Below, piece by piece: positions 24,442 through 34,410 of a stretch of 64,000 nt of DNA. The translations under genes were made by a program, and so were the position numbers. The stretch is from assembly GCA_000381585.1 (NCBI GenBank), contig KB906734.1, positions 1 to 64,000 of the forward strand. Direction: 5' to 3'. Numbering within the stretch: position 1 is the first letter of the stretch; each line of letters begins with the position of its first letter. The notes under the pieces are model-generated. The model made no database searches. It was given only the letters and a program-made list of their open reading frames with translations, and had not been told where the DNA came from. This stretch comes from Acidobacteriaceae bacterium KBS 83 (GTDB taxonomy: Bacteria; Acidobacteriota; Terriglobia; Terriglobales; Acidobacteriaceae).

Positions 24442-24636
24442 ATGCGACGCTACATCCTCTGGTATGTGCTGGCGTTCTTCTGGGGCGCAATCGCCGTGGC
24501 CGGCCTAGTGCGACATCGTCCCGGCAACGCTGCACTGGAGGGTGTCGTCGCCCTCCTCTTCATGATCATCGGTGTTGCCGTGAAGCGAAGAGATGCTGCC
24601 GCGGCTTCGCGTTATACCGCTAACCGGCCCAGATAA
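24442..24636 (+). CDS. Small two-helix membrane protein
   Basis: A 64-residue open frame with two hydrophobic helices (YILWYVLAFFWGAIAVAGLV and LEGVVALLFMIIGVAV) and a basic C terminus. It lies between two minus-strand genes and its last 25 bases overlap the hisA 3' end in a convergent manner. No homologue is recognised. The membrane pattern supports a real gene, but size keeps confidence moderate. Confidence 0.5.
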   Translation: MRRYILWYVLAFFWGAIAVAGLVRHRPGNAALEGVVALLFMIIGVAVKRRDAAAASRYTANRPR

Positions 24637-25316
24637 ACTGCCATTCCTGCTACTGCATCCACTCCCATCGCGGAAAGAGCGTCGATCTCCTCCTGGTCGC
24701 GAATGCCGCCCGCAACAATCAATTGCCGCTCGGTCACCTCACGCAACCTGCGTGCTACCTCCAGCGGAAAACCCTGCATGGTCCCTTCGCGATCGATGTG
24801 TGTGTAGAGAAACGCACCACAGTACGGCTCCAGCGCGACCATCGCCATCTCCGGTGTCAGATTCACCTGCTGCTTCCATCCCTTGATCGCGATGCGGCCC
24901 TCGCGTGTATCTACGCTGAAAACTAGCCGCTCCGCTCCGACAGCGTCGGCGAGTTCGCGGGCAAAATCGCGCCGCACCAGGCTTTGCATCTCGTCTTCAT
25001 TTGCGGCGCCGGCTGCGTCGAACAGTGCGGAGCCGATGATTACGCGCCGCGCGCCCGCTGCCAGCATCTCTCGTACGCGTTCTATCGACCCAATGCCGCC
25101 ACCCACCTGGCACGGCAGCCGCTGCGCGATCTGTTCAATCAGCGCGCGGTTGCTGCCCTGCCGCATCGCCGCATCTAGATCGATCAGCTGCACGATCGGA
25201 TAGCTCGAAAAACGCTGTATCCAGTGCTCGAAGTCATCGAAGGCCAGCTTTAGCTCCTTGCCCTGCACCAGCTGCACGATGCGTCCACCCATCAGGTCAA
25301 TCGAGGGAATCAGCAT
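24612..25316 (-). CDS. hisA: Phosphoribosylformimino-5-aminoimidazole carboxamide ribotide isomerase
   Basis: HisA catalyses the Amadori isomerisation of ProFAR to PRFAR. The 234-residue beta/alpha barrel starts [20 protein letters not shown], with the catalytic Asp in IDL and a second in [11 protein letters not shown]. The phosphate-binding loops [11 protein letters not shown] and [11 protein letters not shown] are present. It is the last gene of the his operon and overlaps hisF by seven bases. Confidence 0.96.
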
Positions 25317-26080
25317 GGCAGCCTCACGGGTACACCCAGAACGGCGAGCTCACTTTTCAGTTCCCGCACATCTGCAATGCCGAAGTGAAAGATGCTCGCG
25401 GCGAGCGCCGCATCCGCGCAACCTGCTTTGAACACTTGAGCAAAATGCTGCGCGTTCCCTGCGCCGCCGGACGCAATTACCGGGATGCGCAGCGCGCTGC
25501 TCACAGCAGCGGTCAGCTCGCAATCGAAACCATTCCGCGTGCCGTCCGCATCCATGGAGGTCAGGAGGATCTCGCCCGCGCCGCGCTCCTCCGCCTCGCG
25601 CGCCCAATCCAGTGCCTTCCGGCCAGTTGGTTTGCGGCCGCCGTTCACATAGACTTCCGCTATTTCCGCACCACCATTGCCACGCCGTGCATCAATGGCA
25701 ACTACCACCGCCTGCGAACCGAAGCTGCGGCCGACCTCGCCGATCAACGATGGGTCCGCAATTGCCGCAGAATTCACACTGATCTTGTCTGCACCCGCAT
25801 CGAAGAGCGCGGCCGCATCATCCGCTGTCCGCACGCCGCCACCCACGGTAAACGGAACGAAGATCTCGCGTGCCGTGCGGGCCACCGTATCCACCAGCGT
25901 CTTCCGCCCCTCGTGCGTCGCTGTGATATCAAGCAGCACAATCTCGTCGGCGCCTGCAGTGGCATGACGATGCGCCAACTCCGCCGGATCGCCCGCGTCC
26001 AGCAGATCGACGAACCGGACCCCCTTCACCACGCGGCCTGCTGTGACGTCGAGACAGGCGATGATGCGCTTGGTCAGCAT
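25310..26080 (-). CDS. hisF: Imidazole glycerol phosphate synthase, cyclase subunit
   Basis: HisF forms IGP and AICAR from PRFAR using ammonia from HisH. From the ATG at 26080 it reads [20 protein letters not shown], with catalytic Asp in CLDV and in [15 protein letters not shown], and loops [10 protein letters not shown] and [11 protein letters not shown]. The 256 residues are normal. A longer open frame to 26323 lies within hisH and is rejected. It overlaps hisH by seven bases and hisA by seven. Confidence 0.96.
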
Positions 26081-26673
26081 CGCGGCACCGCCAGAAAGTT
26101 GCGCAATACCTGCAACCCTGCGTCGCCGGACTTTTCCGGATGAAATTGCACGCCGAAGAGGTTGCCTCGTTCCACCGCCCCGCTGAAGGGCCCCGCATAG
26201 TTGGTTACGCCAACGGTTTCTTCCACTAGGGGCGCGCGGTAGCTGTGCGTGTAATACACGAACGGTTGTGGCGGCAATCCCGCCAATAACCGCGATGCAC
26301 CCGCAGCCGCGATCGTGTTCCATCCAACGTGCGGCACCTTGTGCGAGTCAGGGAAACGCGCGCAGCATCCGCGCATTGCGCCAAGGCCCGCTACTCCACT
26401 CGCCTCTGTGCTGCCTTCAAACAGCCACTGCAGCCCGACGCAGATGCCGAGAAACGGCACACCGGCCGCGATCGACTCGCGCGCCGCATCTTCAATTCCC
26501 GTCTCGCGCAGACGCGCCGTCGCGGCAAAGTGCCCTACTCCGGGAAGCACTACACGCTCCGCCGCGCGCACCACGGCAGGGTCTTCGGTGATTTGGGCTG
26601 CGGCACCAAGCGCTGTGAGCGCCTTCATCACCGAAGTCAAATTGCCGGCCTTGTAGTCGATGACTGCGATCAC
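26074..26673 (-). CDS. hisH: Imidazole glycerol phosphate synthase, glutaminase subunit
   Basis: A class I amidotransferase that feeds ammonia to HisF. The triad is visible: Cys about 78 in [15 protein letters not shown], and His and Glu in VQFHPEKSG near the C terminus. The N terminus [15 protein letters not shown] is typical. The 199-residue length is normal. Its start overlaps the hisB stop by four bases (ATGA). Confidence 0.96.
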
Positions 26674-27320
26674 AACAAACCCTTCGTGCTCGGAAGCATC
26701 TCGCCGAGTTGCTTGTCACGCGAGCAGGCCACCCGCAGTGCGCGCGCGAACGCTTTGAACAGTGCTTCGATCTTGTGGTGGTTGGATCGGCCGTAAAGCG
26801 TCTTCAGGTGCACATTCGCCCGCGCTCCGCGTGCAAAGCCTTCGAAGAAGTCTTCCACCAGTTCGCTCTGCAGGTCGCCTACCAGCCTCGTCTTCACCTT
26901 GGTCTTCACCACGCAGGCAACTCGCCCACTCAGATCAACCGCCGCGACCGCCAGCGTCTCATCCATCGGCATTACAAAATACCCAGCACGCAGAATCCCC
27001 TTCTTGTCAACAAGCGCCTTATCGAAGGCCTCGCCCAGTGCAATGCCCACATCCTCTACCGTGTGGTGTTGATCTACGTCGAGATCGCCCTTGCATTGCA
27101 GTTCCAGGTTGAACGCTCCATGCCTCGTGAACAACTCCAGCATGTGATCGAAGAAACGGATGCCCGTACCCACGCTGTAGCGACCCTGCCCTTCGATCGT
27201 CAGCTTCAGAGCGATCTTCGTCTCTGTCGTGTTTCGATCCAGTGTCGCCGTTCGCAAACCCTTCGTTTCCTCTTTTGTGGCCGCGCCTGCCAACCGCTTT
27301 TTCTTGTTTACGCCCGCCAT
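26670..27320 (-). CDS. hisB: Imidazoleglycerol-phosphate dehydratase (monofunctional)
   Basis: Mn-dependent dehydratase making imidazole-acetol phosphate. Both metal-binding motifs are present: [19 protein letters not shown] and [19 protein letters not shown], with [13 protein letters not shown]. There is no N-terminal HAD phosphatase domain, so histidinol-phosphatase must be encoded elsewhere. A ~20-residue basic N-terminal extension precedes the catalytic core. The ATG at 27320 follows AAGGAGA. It overlaps hisC by 13 bases. Confidence 0.95.
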
Positions 27321-28396
27321 CCAATCTCCTTCAGTGATCGCTCGATAGCTGCCTTCGCCTGCTGCATCTGCTCGCGTGTGCCCACGGTGATGCGAACCAG
27401 GCCGTCGCAGCCCGGATCGGCCGAGCGATCGCGCGTTAGAACGCCGTGCGATCGCATCGCCTGCACAAACGCTCTGTGCTCGGAGCCGATGCGCGTCAGG
27501 ATGAAATTCGCCTCGCTCGGCCAGTGTTCAAGCCCGAACTCCGTCAGCGTCTGCGCGAGCTCCGCGCGGGCCGATTTCACTTCCGCTACATACCAATCCA
27601 GATATGCGTGGTCTTGAAGCGCGGCGGGCAGGCAAGCAAGCGCAAGCTGATTCACGCTGTATGGCGAGATCACGCGTCGCAGCCACTGCATCGTCTCCTC
27701 GGCTGCAACCAGCACCCCCAGCCGCAGACCTGCCATCCCATACGCCTTCGAAAATGTGCGCGCGACAACGAGATTCGGCACCTTGCCGATCAGGTCCAGC
27801 ACCGTCTCGCCGAAAAAGTGATAGTAAGCCTCGTCTAGCAGGACGACTGCTTGCGGCGCGCGTTCTGCAACCTTCACGATCGCGTCACGTGCCACGGTGG
27901 CCCCGGTCGGACTGTTCGGGTTCGCAATCGCGATCAGCCGTGTACGCGCATGGATGGCCCGAAGCATTGCATCGAGAGGAAAGCGGAAGCCCCGGACAGC
28001 CGGCACTGCATCGATCTGCGCCTCCGCCGCCGAACTGTACACCTCATACATGCTGTACGTCGGGACCGGGAGCAGCATGGCATCGCCGCGATCCAGAAAC
28101 GCCTGGCACAACGCGTGGATCGCTTCGTCCACCCCATTGGTCAGAAGCACCTCGACGGGCGCCACGCCCAGCGCATCCGCAACAATCGCTTCCACCGTGC
28201 CGCGTTCGGGATAGCGCGTCAGGTCGGCGGCGGTAATTTTCTGTAGGACCTCGAGCACACGCGGAGAGCAGGCCAACGTGTTCTCGTTGAAATCCAGTCG
28301 CAGCCCATCGCGGCCGGCAACCGGCGGATGATATTCCTTCATGCGGCGCACGCCTGCTCGCGGCTCCGGCGCGCGCGCCGCAACAGGCTCACCCAC
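27308..28396 (-). CDS. hisC: Histidinol-phosphate aminotransferase
   Basis: PLP enzyme converting imidazole-acetol phosphate to histidinol phosphate. Motifs: [50 protein letters not shown], the PLP lysine in [15 protein letters not shown] and [22 protein letters not shown] keep the GTG at 28396 because AGGAG lies about seven bases upstream. An ATG 18 codons later lacks such a site. It overlaps hisD by eight bases. Confidence 0.95.
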
Positions 28397-29678
28397 GCGC
28401 AGCTCCTGCCGCTTCCGCCCGGGTGATTCGCAGTTCCACCGCCTCTGCGTGTCCGCTCAATCCTTCGGCTCGCGCCAGCGCCACTGCGGCAGGCCCCAGC
28501 GCGCGCACCCCATCCGGCGTGTAGCTCTGCACCGTCACAAGTTTTACAAAGTCCATCACGCTCAGGCCACCGCGAAGGCGCGCGACGCCACCCGTCGGCA
28601 GCGTATGGTTCGGCCCGGAAACATAGTCGCCCAGCGGCTGCGATGCCCAGTTGGCGATGAACACCGAGCCCGCATTTCGCACCCACTCCAGATCTTCTTC
28701 ACTGTCTATTGTGAGATGCTCCGGCGCCAGGCGGTTCGCAATCTCCTGCGCCTGCTCTTTCGTATCCGTTATAATTACGTATCCGTGACTACGCAGCGCC
28801 TCGCGGGCCACGGGATTGCGCCGCGACCGCTCCTTCACCTCCCGAATTACCTCTTTGGCCAATGCCGGCTGCGACGTTACCAGCACGCTCAGCGTCTCGG
28901 TATCATGCTCCGCCTGTGCCACCAGATCGGCGCCAATCGCCTCCGGATGCCCTCGCTCGCTGCACACAACAATCTCTGTCGGGCCAGCCAGCATGTCGAT
29001 CCCGCAATCCGATGCGACCAGCCGTTTCGCCGCGGTGACAAACAGGTTGCCCGGCCCCACGATCTTGTCGACCCGTGGCAGCGACGCCGTCCCGTAGGCC
29101 AGCGCGGCGATCGCCTGCGCTCCGCCCACCTGGTACACCTCGTCGATGCCCAGAAGTGTCGCCGCCGCAAGCGTCTCACGCGCGGGCCGCGCCGATACCA
29201 CCACAATGCGTTCGACGCCGGCCACCTGTGCAGGAATCGCCGTCATCAGGAGCGATGACGGCAGCGGATGCCTTCCGCTCGGCACATAGCAACCCACTGC
29301 TGCAAGCGGGCGCACGCGCTGTCCCGTTTTCACTCCGGGCACCGGTTCCGTATCCCACTCCTGCGGCAACTGGCGCTTCGCAAATTCCATAATGTTACGG
29401 GCAGCCAGCTTCAACGCAGCATGCAGCTCCGGGGTGGTCTCCTCCCATGCGCGATGCAGTTCGCCCGGAGCGATGCGCAGCGGCTGCTTTCGCGGTACGC
29501 CGTCAAAGTGCGCGCGCGCCGCCAGCAAGGCACGGTCACTGCCGCGGCGCACATCGTCCACAATGCGCCGCACCTGTCGCTCGACACGATCCAGGTTCGA
29601 CGTCCCGCGCTGTCCCAGCGCCTGAAGCAGCCGCTCCACCTTCCGTGCACCGCCACCGCTGGTTGTCAGTAGTTCCAA
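28389..29678 (-). CDS. hisD: Histidinol dehydrogenase
   Basis: Zn-dependent enzyme for the last two steps of histidine synthesis. Recognisable segments are GCYVPSGRHPLPSSLLMTAIPAQVAGV, GGAQAIAALAYGT, VDKIVGPGN, GIDMLAGPTEIVV, ADLVAQAEHD and APEHLTID, with the metal-site His residues. Its 429 residues are typical. Initiation is at TTG 29678, directly after AGGAGGGCAC. Confidence 0.96.
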   Translation of the reverse strand: MELLTTSGGGARKVERLLQALGQRGTSNLDRVERQVRRIVDDVRRGSDRALLAARAHFDGVPRKQPLRIAPGELHRAWEETTPELHAALKLAARNIMEFAKRQLPQEWDTEPVPGVKTGQRVRPLAAVGCYVPSGRHPLPSSLLMTAIPAQVAGVERIVVVSARPARETLAAATLLGIDEVYQVGGAQAIAALAYGTASLPRVDKIVGPGNLFVTAAKRLVASDCGIDMLAGPTEIVVCSERGHPEAIGADLVAQAEHDTETLSVLVTSQPALAKEVIREVKERSRRNPVAREALRSHGYVIITDTKEQAQEIANRLAPEHLTIDSEEDLEWVRNAGSVFIANWASQPLGDYVSGPNHTLPTGGVARLRGGLSVMDFVKLVTVQSYTPDGVRALGPAAVALARAEGLSGHAEAVELRITRAEAAGAARG

Positions 29679-29708: not shown

Positions 29709-30590
29709 TTAAATGACGACCTTATTCAGCGGATACTCGACAATGCCGGTAGCGCCTGCTGCTTTCAGCCGCGGCAGCACGTCGCGCACCACGCCCTCTT
29801 CCAGAATGGTGTTCACCGCGGTCCACTCCGGATCGCGCAGCGGCGAAACCGTCGGTGAATTCAGCGCCGGCAGCACCTGCAGCACCGCATCCAGGTTCTG
29901 CCTGCGCACGTTCAGCATCAGCCCAACCTGCCCTTGCGCCGCAATCGCGCCGTTCAGCATCAGCGCCAGGTTCTTCACCTTCTCGCACTTCCACGCGTCC
30001 TGCATCGCGCTGCGATTCGCAATCAGGTGTGTTTCGCTTTCCATCACCGTATCAATGATGCGCAGCCGGTTCGCACGCAGTGAGCTGCCGGTCTCCGTCA
30101 CCTCCACAATCGCATCGGCCAGCGTTGGGGGCTTCACTTCGGTCGCACCCCAGCTGAACTCCACCCGCACCTTCACGCCCTTGTTCGCGAAATATCTCTT
30201 CGACACCTCGACAAGCTCCGTCGCAATCGTCTTGCCGTCCAGGTCCTCCGCGCGGTTGTATGGCGAGTCCTCCGGCACGGCGAGCACCCAGCGCACCTTG
30301 TTCCGGCTCTGCTTCGCATATGTCAGGCTGGCAACGCTCTCCACATCGAGTCCACTCTCCACTACCCAATCGACGCCAGTCAGCCCTGCGTCCAGCACGC
30401 CTTTTTCCACGTAGCGCGACATCTCCTGCGCGCGGATCAGCATGCACTCAATCTCCGCATCGTCGATCTGCGGAAAATACGAGCGACCGTTTGCGTAAAT
30501 GCGCCAGCCCGCCCGCTCGAAGAGCGCAATCGTCGCGTCCTGCAGGCTGCCCTTCGGTATGCCGAGCTTCAACTTCGCCGTTGCCGTCAC
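29709..30590 (-). CDS. hisG: ATP phosphoribosyltransferase, long form
   Basis: First enzyme of the pathway, feedback-inhibited by histidine. From GTG 30590 it has about 293 residues: [21 protein letters not shown], the PRPP loop region and [20 protein letters not shown], followed by the C-terminal regulatory domain ([27 protein letters not shown]). It is therefore the long HisG that works without HisZ. The GTG overlaps the hisI stop as GTGA, so translational coupling is likely. An upstream extension to 30659 lies inside hisI and is rejected. Confidence 0.95.
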
Positions 30591-30955
30591 GCGCGCACCT
30601 CGGCTGCTGCTTCCATCGCAATCGGCCGCGTGAAGCAGCTCACCGTGCCCTCGTGGCACACCAGCCCGTCGCCTTCCACGACGACTTCAAACAGCAGCGT
30701 GTCCCTGTCGCAGTCCGTGAATGCCTTCACCACGCGTAAGCGATTGCCGCTGGTCTCGCCCTTCATCCACAGCTTCTGCCGCGTGCGGCTCCAGAACGTG
30801 ACAAAGCCGCTCTCGAGCGTGCGTCGGTAGCTCACTTCATTGAAAAAACCCACCATCAGCACCTCTTTGCTGACGGCATCCTGCACGATGGCTGGCACCA
30901 GCCCGTCCATCTTTTCGAAATCGATCGTTGCCTCGCTGCTCACGTGTCTCTCCAT
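30587..30955 (-). CDS. hisI: Phosphoribosyl-AMP cyclohydrolase
   Basis: It opens the purine ring of PR-AMP. Family segments are [45 protein letters not shown], the metal-site DCDRDTLL and CHEGTVSCF. The 122-residue protein lacks the HisE (PR-ATP pyrophosphohydrolase) half, and no hisE is in the window. The ATG at 30955 has only a weak ribosome site; the in-frame GTG at 30943 is preceded by GGAGAG and may be the true start. It is the first enzyme gene after the attenuator. Confidence 0.93.
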
Positions 30956-30972
30956 ATGGTTCGCCTGAATGC

Positions 30973-31005
30973 AAAAAGCCCACCGTTGCTAGGCATCGGC
31001 GGGCT
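30973..31005 (-). terminator. Attenuator terminator of the his operon
   Basis: On the minus strand, GCCCGCCG (31004-30997), an 11-base loop and CGGTGGGC (30985-30978) form an 8-bp stem with one G-U pair, extended by one A-T pair. Five T follow (30977-30973). It lies between the leader peptide and hisI. Its first arm can instead pair with CGGCGG at 31054-31049, so it is conditional. Confidence 0.88.
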
Positions 31006-31031
31006 GCTGGGACCTTATCTCGGTTTGCTGC

Positions 31032-31109
31032 TTATCTTCCGGAGGAGTCCGCCGACACGTTCGCCACGTGGTGATGATGGGCATGGCGATGATGGCGGTG
31101 GAGGTTCAT
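31032..31109 (-). CDS. hisL: His operon leader peptide (attenuator peptide)
   Basis: A 25-codon frame on the minus strand: ATG at 31109 and TAA at 31032-31034. Residues 4-14 read HRHHRHAHHHH, eight histidines in eleven codons, which is the hallmark of ribosome-mediated his attenuation. It lies directly upstream of an intrinsic terminator and hisI and is preceded within 15-43 bases by TTGACA and a -10-like box. Stalling at His codons when His-tRNA is scarce would leave segment 31049-31054 free to form the antiterminator. The ribosome site is weak (CGGA) and the 5' UTR would be only about 8 nt. Confidence 0.9.
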   Translation of the reverse strand: MNLHRHHRHAHHHHVANVSADSSGR

Positions 31110-31123
31110 ATTCCGTAGCACTA

Positions 31124-31152
31124 ACGCTAGCGGCTCGGCCGCAAAGTGTCAA
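31124..31152 (-). promoter_or_regulatory. Promoter of the his operon
   Basis: On the minus strand, a perfect TTGACA (31147-31152) is followed after 17 bases by TAGCGT (31124-31129), a weak -10 with T-A-----T conserved. It lies in the last codons of the sensor kinase gene, so the his operon can also receive read-through. Predicted start is near 31117. Confidence 0.6.
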
Positions 31153-33412
31153 CCGCACGGCTGCGGTTTCTCCGCACAGCCGCCTCCTGCGCCCTCTGGG
31201 CGCGACCGCCTCTCCCGTTACGCGACCATGCCATCCTCTGCCGTAGCCGGCTCCGCAGTGTCCCCCAGAATCCACGCGTGCTCATGTGCTCTTCCAGCGG
31301 CGCATTCGCCTCGACGCGCGTGCCCTTGCCCGCCTCGCTTGTGATCGTCAGCGTCGCGCCGATGCTGCGCGCACGCTTTTCCATGCCCCGCAGGCCGAAG
31401 CCGCGTGTCTGCTGCTTCGGATTGAAGCCCCGCCCTTCGTCTGCCACAGCAAGCGTGACATGCTTCATCTCGTACTCCACGGACAACACGATTTGCGTTG
31501 GATTGGCATGGCGAACCGAATTCACGATCGCTTCCCTGCCAATATGAAACAACGCATCCGCTACCCGAACCGGAATGTGCGCCGGGGCACCTCGGCCATC
31601 CCCGCGTCCTTTCCGGACGACACGCACATTCCCGCCCGCCACGATACTCGCCGCGCAGTCTTCAAGCGCACTCCCGAGCTCTTTGCCTGCGGGCCACTCC
31701 TCCCGCAGCATCGCAATGCTCAGGCTGGCCTCCTCATGCGTCTGTCGCACCACGTCACATGCCAGTTCGATCTGCTGGTTCACCCGCGCGATACCGGCCG
31801 AGTCTGCATGTTCGAGCCCATTGCGGATGCCCTGCAATTGGAACGCAACGCCTGCGAAGCTCTGCGCCAAAGTATCGTGCAGCTCGTGCGCGAGCCGCTC
31901 GCGCTCCTGAACGATCGCGCGCCAGCGCCATTGCTTCGCGCGGCTGTAGAGATACTGCACCAGCAGGCACAACAACAGAATCGCCGATCCGATCTCCGCC
32001 AGCCGCGATGGAGTCCACCATGGCGGCCCCGCCAGCCGGTCGATATCTTCGCTCGAGCGCAGCAGCAGCGCGAACGACGTCACACCCTCCGTATATCGCC
32101 GTTCCAGCGTGCATACTCCGCGCAGGTTCAGCAGGCTGCGCGGCAACATGCGGCGATAGAACGCGGCCGACTGCCCTGCCGGGATGAATGCGCGAAATGC
32201 CTGCGCCCCGCTGGCAAGCTCAAGCACAAGCATCTTGCTCCCTGTCTCCTGGTGTACGCCGGTCAGTTCGCCCTGTAGCTCGATCAGACGCGCATCGTAG
32301 TTGCCGGTAGCCGCCTGTCCTGCGGTAATGGACAGTGGCGCAGCCGGCGTGTGGTCCCACAGCAGACGCACCCGCGCATGAGGAAGCATCGCGCCGGCTC
32401 CGATTGCATCTCTAAGAGCCGAGGGCGTACCGGTCGCCTCCACCTCATCACCCAGATTCAACGCGGGCGCAATCGGATCGGGAAGCGCAATTCCTCCGGT
32501 GTCGTCCTGCACAAAAAGCATGGGAGAAGTCAGCGATACCGTACCTCTCACTGTTACTAATTGTGCTTCCCTTCCGCGAACGCGCTCCGGTACGCTTGCA
32601 ATCGGAGTAATCTCGGTTTGCGGTTCCTGGTCACCGAAGAACCGCCGCTGCAATGCGAGGTCGTCGAAGGTAGGAAAACTATGCGACGCATTGAAGGCCG
32701 CCTCGCTCTTCGGGAAGTCCGGATGGAGCACCGTCGGCGCAGGTCCGGCCAGCGCCACCAGGTCCGCCTCTTTGGCAGGCTTGACCTGAACGTTGCGCCA
32801 TGCCGCGCCCGTCGCCAGCGAGCGCAAACCGATGCGGCCACTACGCACGCAATTCGGCTCCTGAAAGAACAGTCTCGCCTCATTGGTCGATCCCAGTTCG
32901 CTAACCCTCGCGGCGATGCTGCACCCCACCGCTACTACATCAAGGTGGTACCAGACATGGCTGCGCAGGCCGGGCAAGCGCACGGGCGTGGCTTCCAACC
33001 AGCCGTGGTCGGAGCGCCCGATAAGCAGCGTGCTGTCGTACATCCGCACCCCGACGTAGTAGCCGTCGTAAGCGTCCACACCCGGCTCTTCATCCTTTGA
33101 CCTCAGCACCACCCCGGCGTCGCCGCCTTCGCCCAGCAGCTGCACATCCGCCTGCAGACGATAGTCCCTCCAGCGATAAGAGCCGGTAAGCATTTTGGCG
33201 CCGCGTTCGTCGGAATCGTTATGCATTGCGCCCGCAGCCAGACGCCATGCGCCGCCTACGGCATGCCATTCATCCGCGCGGTTCTGCGCAAAGTCATCGC
33301 GGTAGAAGGGCCGCGCAGTCGCAAACCAGCGCCACGCCGCCACGGTGCCGGCCAGCAGCGCGAGCGCAGCCAGGGCGGCGATCCACCATGATCGTCGACT
33401 GCTGTCGCTCAC
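31127..33412 (-). CDS. Membrane sensor histidine kinase with extracytoplasmic LamG-like and OB-like domains
   Basis: A 761-residue kinase. A transmembrane helix at 10-27 is followed by a beta-rich domain at about 35-210 resembling LamG/3-keto-disaccharide-hydrolase folds (WHAVGGAWRLAAGAMHND; SGRIGLRSLA). An OB-like stretch covers about 280-450 and a second helix about 470-490. The cytoplasmic part has HisKA_3 with the phospho-accepting His about 512 in RLAHELHDTLAQSFAG, and a HATPase (FHIGREAIVNSVRHANPTQI; ADEGRGFNPKQQTRGFGLRGM). The last ~60 residues are Arg-rich. It overlaps the upstream binding-protein gene by four bases. No response regulator is adjacent. Confidence 0.9.
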   Translation of the reverse strand: MSDSSRRSWWIAALAALALLAGTVAAWRWFATARPFYRDDFAQNRADEWHAVGGAWRLAAGAMHNDSDERGAKMLTGSYRWRDYRLQADVQLLGEGGDAGVVLRSKDEEPGVDAYDGYYVGVRMYDSTLLIGRSDHGWLEATPVRLPGLRSHVWYHLDVVAVGCSIAARVSELGSTNEARLFFQEPNCVRSGRIGLRSLATGAAWRNVQVKPAKEADLVALAGPAPTVLHPDFPKSEAAFNASHSFPTFDDLALQRRFFGDQEPQTEITPIASVPERVRGREAQLVTVRGTVSLTSPMLFVQDDTGGIALPDPIAPALNLGDEVEATGTPSALRDAIGAGAMLPHARVRLLWDHTPAAPLSITAGQAATGNYDARLIELQGELTGVHQETGSKMLVLELASGAQAFRAFIPAGQSAAFYRRMLPRSLLNLRGVCTLERRYTEGVTSFALLLRSSEDIDRLAGPPWWTPSRLAEIGSAILLLCLLVQYLYSRAKQWRWRAIVQERERLAHELHDTLAQSFAGVAFQLQGIRNGLEHADSAGIARVNQQIELACDVVRQTHEEASLSIAMLREEWPAGKELGSALEDCAASIVAGGNVRVVRKGRGDGRGAPAHIPVRVADALFHIGREAIVNSVRHANPTQIVLSVEYEMKHVTLAVADEGRGFNPKQQTRGFGLRGMEKRARSIGATLTITSEAGKGTRVEANAPLEEHMSTRGFWGTLRSRLRQRMAWSRNGRGGRAQRAQEAAVRRNRSRAVDTLRPSR

Positions 33413-34410
33413 TCAGTCGGCCTCCAGTCCATATTCAGCATCTTCTGGATCTCCGGAGTGTCCACGTTGTCACGCGTCACCAGTCGCGGCGCAAAGCGCA
33501 ATACACGTCCTGGCGCTCGCACCTTCCCGCCAACACGATGTTCCGTGATCAGGCGTGTCGCCTGGTACCCCATCGCAAATGTGTTCTCCGCCACCAGCGA
33601 GTCGATCTCGCCCAGCCGCAGGTAATACACCAGGTCAAGATCCTGATCACATGCCACCAGGTGCACCTGCTGGATACGCTGCTTCAGCTTGAGTCCGCGA
33701 TAGACGCCGCGCGTTGCTCCGACGGTCAGAGTAAAGATCGCGTTGAGCTGCGGATGGCTCGCCAGCAGCTCCTCCGTATCCTGCTCCGCAAGATTGGTGC
33801 GGAACCGGCCCGGCAGCGGGTCGAGCACCGTAATGCCCGGGAAGCGCGCCGCCATCGTCTGGCGAAAAGCCTCGGCGCGCGCCACCGTTCCCATTAGCGC
33901 CGGTGTCTCCCCCAGCACCGCCACCGTCCCGCGTCCATGCAGAATGGCGCCGATGCGATCCGCGGCGAGCTCGCCCGTCTGCTGTTCATCATTCAACAGG
34001 TAGTCCACGTCCAGCGATGGTGGCAGGTTCAACGTCGCATCCACCACCACGACGGGCATCCCCTGCTCCGCAGCCCGACGCACCGCTGTTGTCAGAGCGA
34101 GCGGATGATCGGGCGCCAGTATCAGGCCGCCGTCCCGCTGGCGAATTGCCTGCTGCACCAGCGCGATCTGCCGGTCAACCTCCGTCTCGCTGCTTGGACC
34201 GTTCCAGCGTTCCTTCCACCGTGTGCCGAGCAGAGCCTTGGCCACGCCAGCATGCTCCGCCTCCCAGATCTCCTGCGCTGTCGTCTGCGGTACCACGGCA
34301 ATCGTATGCGGATGGCCGCCGGAACAGCCCCCGAGCATTAGATCCAGTGACAGCAGCGCCAGGGACCAGCACCAGACTCCGATACTCCTCACGCTCCGGA
34401 ATCGCCTCAT
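33409..34410 (-). CDS. Sugar-binding-type periplasmic lipoprotein (Peripla_BP_4 / LacI-like fold)
   Basis: A 333-residue exported protein with a signal ending LMLGGC (lipid Cys about 29), so it is membrane anchored. The rest matches type I periplasmic binding proteins of ribose/galactose type: HTIAVVPQTTAQEIWEAEHAGV, GLILAPDHPLAL, PVVVVDATL, DYLLNDEQQTGELAADRI, AIFTLTVGATRGVYRGL and HLVACDQDLDLVYYLRLGEIDSLV. There is no ABC transporter next to it. The ATGA overlap with the sensor kinase suggests it presents a ligand to the kinase, which is inference. Confidence 0.85.
   Translation of the reverse strand: MRRFRSVRSIGVWCWSLALLSLDLMLGGCSGGHPHTIAVVPQTTAQEIWEAEHAGVAKALLGTRWKERWNGPSSETEVDRQIALVQQAIRQRDGGLILAPDHPLALTTAVRRAAEQGMPVVVVDATLNLPPSLDVDYLLNDEQQTGELAADRIGAILHGRGTVAVLGETPALMGTVARAEAFRQTMAARFPGITVLDPLPGRFRTNLAEQDTEELLASHPQLNAIFTLTVGATRGVYRGLKLKQRIQQVHLVACDQDLDLVYYLRLGEIDSLVAENTFAMGYQATRLITEHRVGGKVRAPGRVLRFAPRLVTRDNVDTPEIQKMLNMDWRPTE

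Follow-up and report, generated by a model that had tools for sequence, protein, structure and literature searches.

Ribosome-mediated attenuation is long established from the his and trp operons of enterobacteria. In the enterobacterial his layout, a leader with His codons is followed by mutually exclusive 1:2, 2:3 and 3:4 helices, and a terminator stands before the first his gene. Mycobacterial poly-Cys leaders are reportedly leaderless (Canestrari 2020). Excerpts of two further papers describe comparable cases: S. meliloti trpL has a leaderless leader peptide and attenuation of the downstream operon (PMC7298713), and the ilvBNC leader peptide of C. glutamicum is treated as leaderless (PMC11857589). 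According to part of a 2022 study, His leader attenuators are predicted in the B. cereus group, Eubacteriales and Erysipelotrichales, in six, five and six species, respectively (PMC9413887), and hisZ/hisS* of bacilli has a predicted His leader attenuator in the excerpted text of a 2010 survey (PMC2965389). The same excerpts of that survey give almost no predicted Acidobacteria attenuator with an assigned function, and describe leader-peptide systems as not shown outside Proteobacteria and Actinobacteria before its bacilli case (PMC2965389). Leaderless genes average 13.3% in three Acidobacteria genomes, according to a portion of PMC3160421. No report of a his leader in Acidobacteria was found in the open-access full text searched, which was represented partly by its best matches only.

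The locus described here lies upstream of hisI in a 64,000-nucleotide stretch of DNA (the window) from Acidobacteriaceae bacterium KBS 83. Very probably, the element is a ribosome-mediated transcription attenuator responsive to charged tRNA-His. This reading is based on the sequence, its conservation, compensatory changes and synonymous-codon constraint, from which we infer the start site, leaderless translation, stalling and regulation by histidine.

Layout of the hisI leader region

A preliminary description of this DNA had placed a promoter, a 25-codon frame, a terminator and segments 1–4 on the minus strand ahead of hisI, and all of these coordinates proved correct on re-reading (Table 1). 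It had also put the promoter within the kinase gene, which agrees with our reading, the kinase ORF ending inside the -10 hexamer. The 2:3 helix had been drawn as CGGCGG/CCGCCG extended by a U-A pair and two wobble pairs; we found these and one further G-C pair, giving 10 pairs in all. Segment 1 folds into a longer hairpin, in a register slightly off CCGCC:GGCGG. From the promoter position, hisL is predicted to have a 5′ UTR of about 8 nt with no Shine-Dalgarno sequence. The terminator ends 17 nt upstream of the hisI ATG, and the distance from leader stop to hisI start is 76 nt (31032 to 30955). Two further features were seen nearby: a terminator-like hairpin with a T-run within the hisI coding sequence (30878-30851, minus strand), and a Peripla_BP_4 protein at 33409-34410 that adjoins the sensor-kinase-like ORF.

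Table 1. Coordinates of the leader elements, the his genes and the upstream gene in the window.
Feature	Position	Strand	Remarks
-35 hexamer, TTGACA	31147..31152	minus	Within 3′ end of upstream kinase gene; read from sequence
-10 hexamer, TAGCGT	31124..31129	minus	17-nt spacer from -35; first three bases are the kinase stop codon
hisL leader frame, MNLHRHHRHAHHHHVANVSADSSGR	31032..31109	minus	25 codons plus stop; ATG at 31109-31107
Regulatory His codons (putative)	31068..31100	minus	8 His within codons 4-14; run kept in relatives
Segment 1, 5′ arm of 1:2 hairpin	31092..31102	minus	From folds and synonymous-codon control; no single conserved helix
Segment 2, GTGTCGGCGG	31049..31058	minus	Tail of leader frame; pairing with segment 3
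Segment 3	30993..31002	minus	Common to antiterminator and terminator
Segment 4, 3′ arm of terminator	30977..30989	minus	Terminator pairing across relatives
Intrinsic terminator, 3:4	30973..31005	minus	Stem 31005-30993 with 30989-30977; T-run 30977-30973
hisI	30587..30955	minus	First structural gene; PF01502; ATG at 30955
hisG ORF	29709..30659	minus	PF01634, PF08029; true start probably downstream of listed GTG
hisD	28389..29678	minus	PF00815
hisC-like aminotransferase	27308..28396	minus	PF00155
hisB, imidazoleglycerol-phosphate dehydratase	26670..27320	minus	PF00475
hisH, hisF and hisA reading frames	24612..26673	minus	Names from reading translations, not from family search
Sensor-kinase-like ORF	31127..33412	minus	HisKA_3, HATPase_c; N-terminal 3-keto-disaccharide-hydrolase-like domain; 3′ end holds his promoter

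We compared these elements with chance expectations. Eight His within 11 codons occur once in the window, where the next best count is 5, and the maximum in 40 simulated first-order Markov windows was 6. The leader RNA folds better than its shuffled versions, with z -2.73 and 1 of 200 shuffles as good. The terminator by itself was not beyond chance in a simple scan of the window (2 found, shuffle mean 1.2), and the promoter was not picked up by a consensus scan of the window because TAGCGT agrees at 3 of 6 positions only. Both elements stand above chance because they are conserved in relatives.

Conservation within the Acidobacteriaceae

HisI was matched in 70 of 100 family genomes, from which 68 loci were taken by HisI alone, G052 and G099, whose matches are split, being set aside. 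In two of the 68 the DNA ahead of hisI is 36 and 2 nt long, which leaves 66 usable loci. Every one of the 66 carries a His-rich short frame upstream of hisI, with 5–8 His in 8 codons. A terminator lies between the frame and hisI in 66/66 loci (65 by script, L028 by eye); four wrongly picked stems were replaced, and in L032, one of these four, the T-run is poor. A second scan, of named genomes, gave a leader in 80/80 loci (the best 80 of 568), at least 14 of them identical upstream to one of the 66 family loci. Leader-bearing named loci include those of Terriglobus roseus DSM 18391, Acidipila rosea, Granulicella rosea and Edaphobacter lichenicola. As a measure of chance, 350-nt stretches were drawn at random from the named loci; among 1000 of them, 7 contained at least 5 His in 8 codons and 36 contained 4. 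Pooling the 66 and 80 loci yields 129 distinct leader sequences, with the GTG-starting leader of L046 left out. One locus (L148), from a record titled Verrucomicrobia, has a leader and a HisI of acidobacterial type (77% identity to the query) and probably represents a mislabelled bin.

Of the 74 high-quality family genomes sampled, 21 had no HisI match. Pfam models for HisG and HisB also found no match in 17/17 HisI-less family genomes tested (G001, G004, G010, G011, G014, G022, G023, G025, G045, G048, G049, G060, G069, G080, G042, G074 and G091; 30 are HisI-less), while 13 of 14 controls matched. By gene content, these 17 genomes look like histidine auxotrophs. The idea that these 17 have an alternative his operon was dropped, HisG and HisB being missing too.

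Promoter geometry and the start of the leader

The sequence TTGACA is exact in 53/66 family loci, and TTGACN is present in 63/66, 16–18 nt ahead of a -10-like hexamer; TTGACN together with TAnnnT was found in 62/66, using a script that required A at position 2 and T at position 6 of the -10. The distance from -10 to leader ATG is 6–14 nt in 60/66 family loci (62 with the second ATG in L027 and L051) and in 75/80 named loci, where it spans 6–12 nt. When the -10 was left unused, TTGACN was 28–38 nt from the ATG in 60/63 family and 76/79 named loci. Four or more bases of AGGAGG precede the leader ATG in 2/66 family and 4/80 named loci. Three family loci are without a clear promoter (L042, L044 and L058), and in L002 the gap is longer and comes with GGAG. 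In other families of the class, the gap given by the script is 8–15 nt in 34/40 loci, with a poor -35 in family f5.

By the usual spacing, a 6-nt gap places the transcription start at the A of the ATG. Since the leader ATG is usually 6–14 nt past the -10 and lacks a Shine-Dalgarno sequence, we predict from these sequences that the leader is leaderless or nearly so. The conserved promoter hexamers just before the ATG also speak against a transcription start downstream of the leader.

Elsewhere in the same genome, the TTGACA/TAnnnT arrangement stands 6–11 nt before an ATG at 11 places (0 in a backward control) and 21–26 nt before one at 6 places (2 in the control). No second amino-acid leader was found among those 11 frames. 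Near-leaderless geometry was also seen before frames whose translations read as PadR-, ArsR- and BlaI-type-looking regulators (L268, L270 and L275).

Covariation and codon constraint in the competing helices

An alignment of the 66 family rows (A2), built without structure, was compared with 500 shuffles, whose counts are not probabilities because the rows are related. For the terminator helix 3:4, 88.4% of cells are paired, falling to 31–50% when slid. Six of its 11 pairs are changed on both sides, in 59 such cells versus 25 in shuffles, and the covariation score of 0.240 (0.159 shuffled) was reached by 0/500; on weaker measures, shuffles reached the observed value in 110/500 (pairs) and 132/500 (types). 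The antiterminator helix 2:3 has 90.6% of cells paired and 27–44% when slid. Here 3/10 pairs are changed on both sides, and the score of 0.228 (0.186 shuffled) was again reached by 0/500, with weaker measures reached by 24/500 (pairs), 32/500 (types) and 9/500 (cells). Unaided, the consensus fold recovers the terminator only, and no fixed consensus helix was found for hairpin 1:2 on 74 of the 129 leaders. The comparison that the preliminary description had called for thus came out in its favor: relatives retain the His run together with both rival stems, 2:3 and 3:4, and these covary.

Hairpin 1:2 was also approached through synonymous codons. In 61/66 family loci the actual leader frame gives a better fold than its synonymous versions do, with a mean z of -1.26. 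Upstream pairing of segment 2 is above that of synonymous versions in 55/65 loci (0.76 vs 0.66); in the window, the observed value was reached by 23% of synonymous versions.

Folding as a function of ribosome position

For each leader codon, the RNA ending with segment 3 was folded with a ribosome placed there, whose footprint was assumed to reach from 14 nt upstream of the first P-site base to 16 nt downstream of it. For the window, the predicted probability of the antiterminator, P(2:3), is 0.79–0.99 with the A-site on His codons 4–14 and 0.27 at Val15; past the His run it is 0.00 from Ala16 to Arg25 and 0.002 at the stop. Without a ribosome P(2:3) is 0.96, so the earlier proposal that 1:2 excludes 2:3 finds no support in the window at equilibrium; it fits many relatives, the family mean without a ribosome being 0.42. 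Across the 66 family loci, mean P(2:3) is 0.81 on His codons, 0.02 downstream and 0.31 at the stop. Exceptions occur: on His codons, P(2:3) is close to 0 in 5/66 (L019, L037, L047, L049 and L062) and 0.5 or less in 8/66, and at the stop codon it is 0.8 or more in 20/66.

With a general measure in which the pairs are not fixed, pairing was higher on His codons than after them in 66/66 loci of the family, 38/39 of other class families and 23/23 of a second class (66, 39 and 23 of 66, 40 and 30 loci analysed, with 8 unparsable loci left out). Pairing between leader tail and terminator arm was also better for the actual sequence than for synonymous tails, in 61/66, 36/39 and 22/23 loci. At equilibrium, the terminator forms in the full window RNA wherever the ribosome is placed, with P(3:4) at least 0.986. 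Because the full RNA prefers the terminator at equilibrium, antitermination would have to be kinetic, occurring during transcription.

Occurrence beyond the family

We used the 66 family loci to build a covariance model (R1), which matched 191 of 250 class genomes at E ≤0.01, 57 of them from the same family. The matches listed include at least 150 genomes at E ≤3.4e-6, from seven families (f1, f4, f5, f6, f7, f13 and f14). We examined 40 class matches outside the family (f4, f5, f6, f7, f13 and f14), which were chosen by R1. Since R1 contains the His run, the run in these 40 is no independent evidence; the downstream genes are. hisI comes next in 40/40, and hisG is present in 38/40 (L207 ends early and L214 has none within reach). 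Four to seven His in 8 codons are found in 38/40, and three in L209 and L208 (the latter by eye); the leader of L236 starts with GTG.

A HisI search of the second class, to which G478 belongs, was positive in 67/80 genomes, and the 30 best-matching loci were taken by HisI alone. A clear His-rich frame precedes hisI in 28/30, the other two being weak; there are 5–7 His in 8 codons in 25/30, 4 in three and 3 in two (L298 and L306). No in-frame ATG is present in three loci (L287, L296 and L305), and L297 is without a T-run.

Against 247 phylum genomes, R1 matched 52 at E ≤0.001 (25 from the same family). R1 missed most second-class leaders, so the 195 phylum genomes without a match are no measure of absence. 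Among the 27 matches outside the family, 20 were examined; 9 of these are his leaders, and the other 11 either are no his leaders or are too short to judge. The first gene after these 9 leaders is hisI in five, hisG in two (L250 and L258) and hisZ in two (L245 and L253, both of family f33), with hisZ above the cut-off of NCBIfam TIGR00443. From the f33 leaders, it appears that the attenuator stands ahead of different first genes of the pathway. Matches near E 0.01 include noise: G025 matched at E 0.0032 yet is without HisG, and three more matches in the genome of the window (E 0.009, 0.015 and 0.016) were treated as noise. Phage records gave no match.

The Rfam His_leader model gave no match in the window at the gathering score and none in 20 loci at E ≤1. 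On those 20 loci, the only Rfam matches were far below gathering scores, and included Thr_leader and Trp_leader on the leader strand (L003 and L043). His_leader matched 0/16 genomes, only three of which have the element (G000, G066 and G098); the E. coli and C. glutamicum controls matched, one of them above the cut-off.

Discussion

The operon probably responds to histidine supply by way of a ribosome that stalls. RNA polymerase would start a few nt before the leader ATG, and a ribosome would load at the transcript's extreme 5′ end, probably unaided by a Shine-Dalgarno sequence. When charged tRNA-His is short, the ribosome would stall on the His run and cover segment 1, leaving segment 2 free to pair with segment 3 once this is made, and polymerase would continue into hisI. 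With plentiful histidine, the ribosome would pass the His codons and cover segment 2 as segment 3 emerges, so that 3 would pair with 4 and transcription would end. In the case of no translation, the 1:2 hairpin would favor termination, a step that fits many relatives and is weak in the window.

Of the alternatives, the one that survives best is that the leader works chiefly in trans, as RNA or as peptide, in the manner of rnTrpL/peTrpL of S. meliloti, with attenuation as its source. We consider this improbable, because cis pairing accounts for the conservation and the peptide tails are not conserved between families, although a near-leaderless leader with a terminator would give a short RNA starting near the ATG, as rnTrpL does in the excerpt of PMC7298713. 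A portion of PMC4833913 proposes reinitiation downstream of leader genes in bacteria, Acidobacteria among them, and hisI translation might be coupled to leader translation in this way instead of through transcription attenuation. The covarying terminator between leader and hisI and, in the window, the length of the interval from leader stop to hisI start make such coupling very unlikely. Least credible of all is a small His-rich metal-binding peptide, with an ordinary terminator setting a low basal level of the operon: His-rich peptides do bind metals, and tails such as VSA recur within the family, but the tail varies between families while its RNA pairing with the terminator arm is kept and exceeds that of synonymous tails, and although the HisI-chosen loci have his genes by choice, the model-chosen class leaders also precede hisI, in 40/40.

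Given a tRNA-His-sensing attenuator, we tentatively propose, as a possibility somewhat short of an even one, that it belongs to an ancient class that is leaderless by design. In such a class, the start codon would be the first part of the transcript to emerge, an entire 70S ribosome would bind directly to this free end, and switch timing would hinge on that binding; the element would go back to the ancestor of at least two Acidobacteriota classes and would have been retained as its pairing sequences were rewritten family by family. Acidobacteria are common in soils. The phylum gains a probable histidine-responsive switch with about 200 natural variants (129 family leaders, and 40 + 30 loci), and transcription-translation coupling and leaderless initiation become testable in Acidobacteria.

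Comparison with known systems

Enterobacterial hisL (Rfam RF00514, His_leader) resembles the present element in its His run, the proposed helix logic and a terminator before the first his gene. It differs in phylum; here the run is often broken by Arg, Gly or Ala, the operon opens with hisI, and the start codon lies near the predicted 5′ end with no Shine-Dalgarno sequence. The preliminary description spoke of classical enterobacterial his logic, of which the logic stands while the enterobacterial layout gives way to a near-leaderless leader. The His leaders of Firmicutes share a short His-codon leader, terminator and antiterminator before his genes. They belong to another phylum, whereas the element here occurs in most sampled HisI-bearing genomes of one family and in the examined loci of a second class, and is backed by covariation and codon-level tests. 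S. meliloti trpL, C. glutamicum ilvBNC and the mycobacterial poly-Cys leaders are alike in having a frame with regulatory codons near the 5′ end of the transcript; they involve other amino acids and other phyla, and in the present case leaderlessness is predicted from the promoter. The mechanism is a known one; the present element is widespread in two or more classes of a single phylum, and its distinguishing trait is a probable leaderless start.
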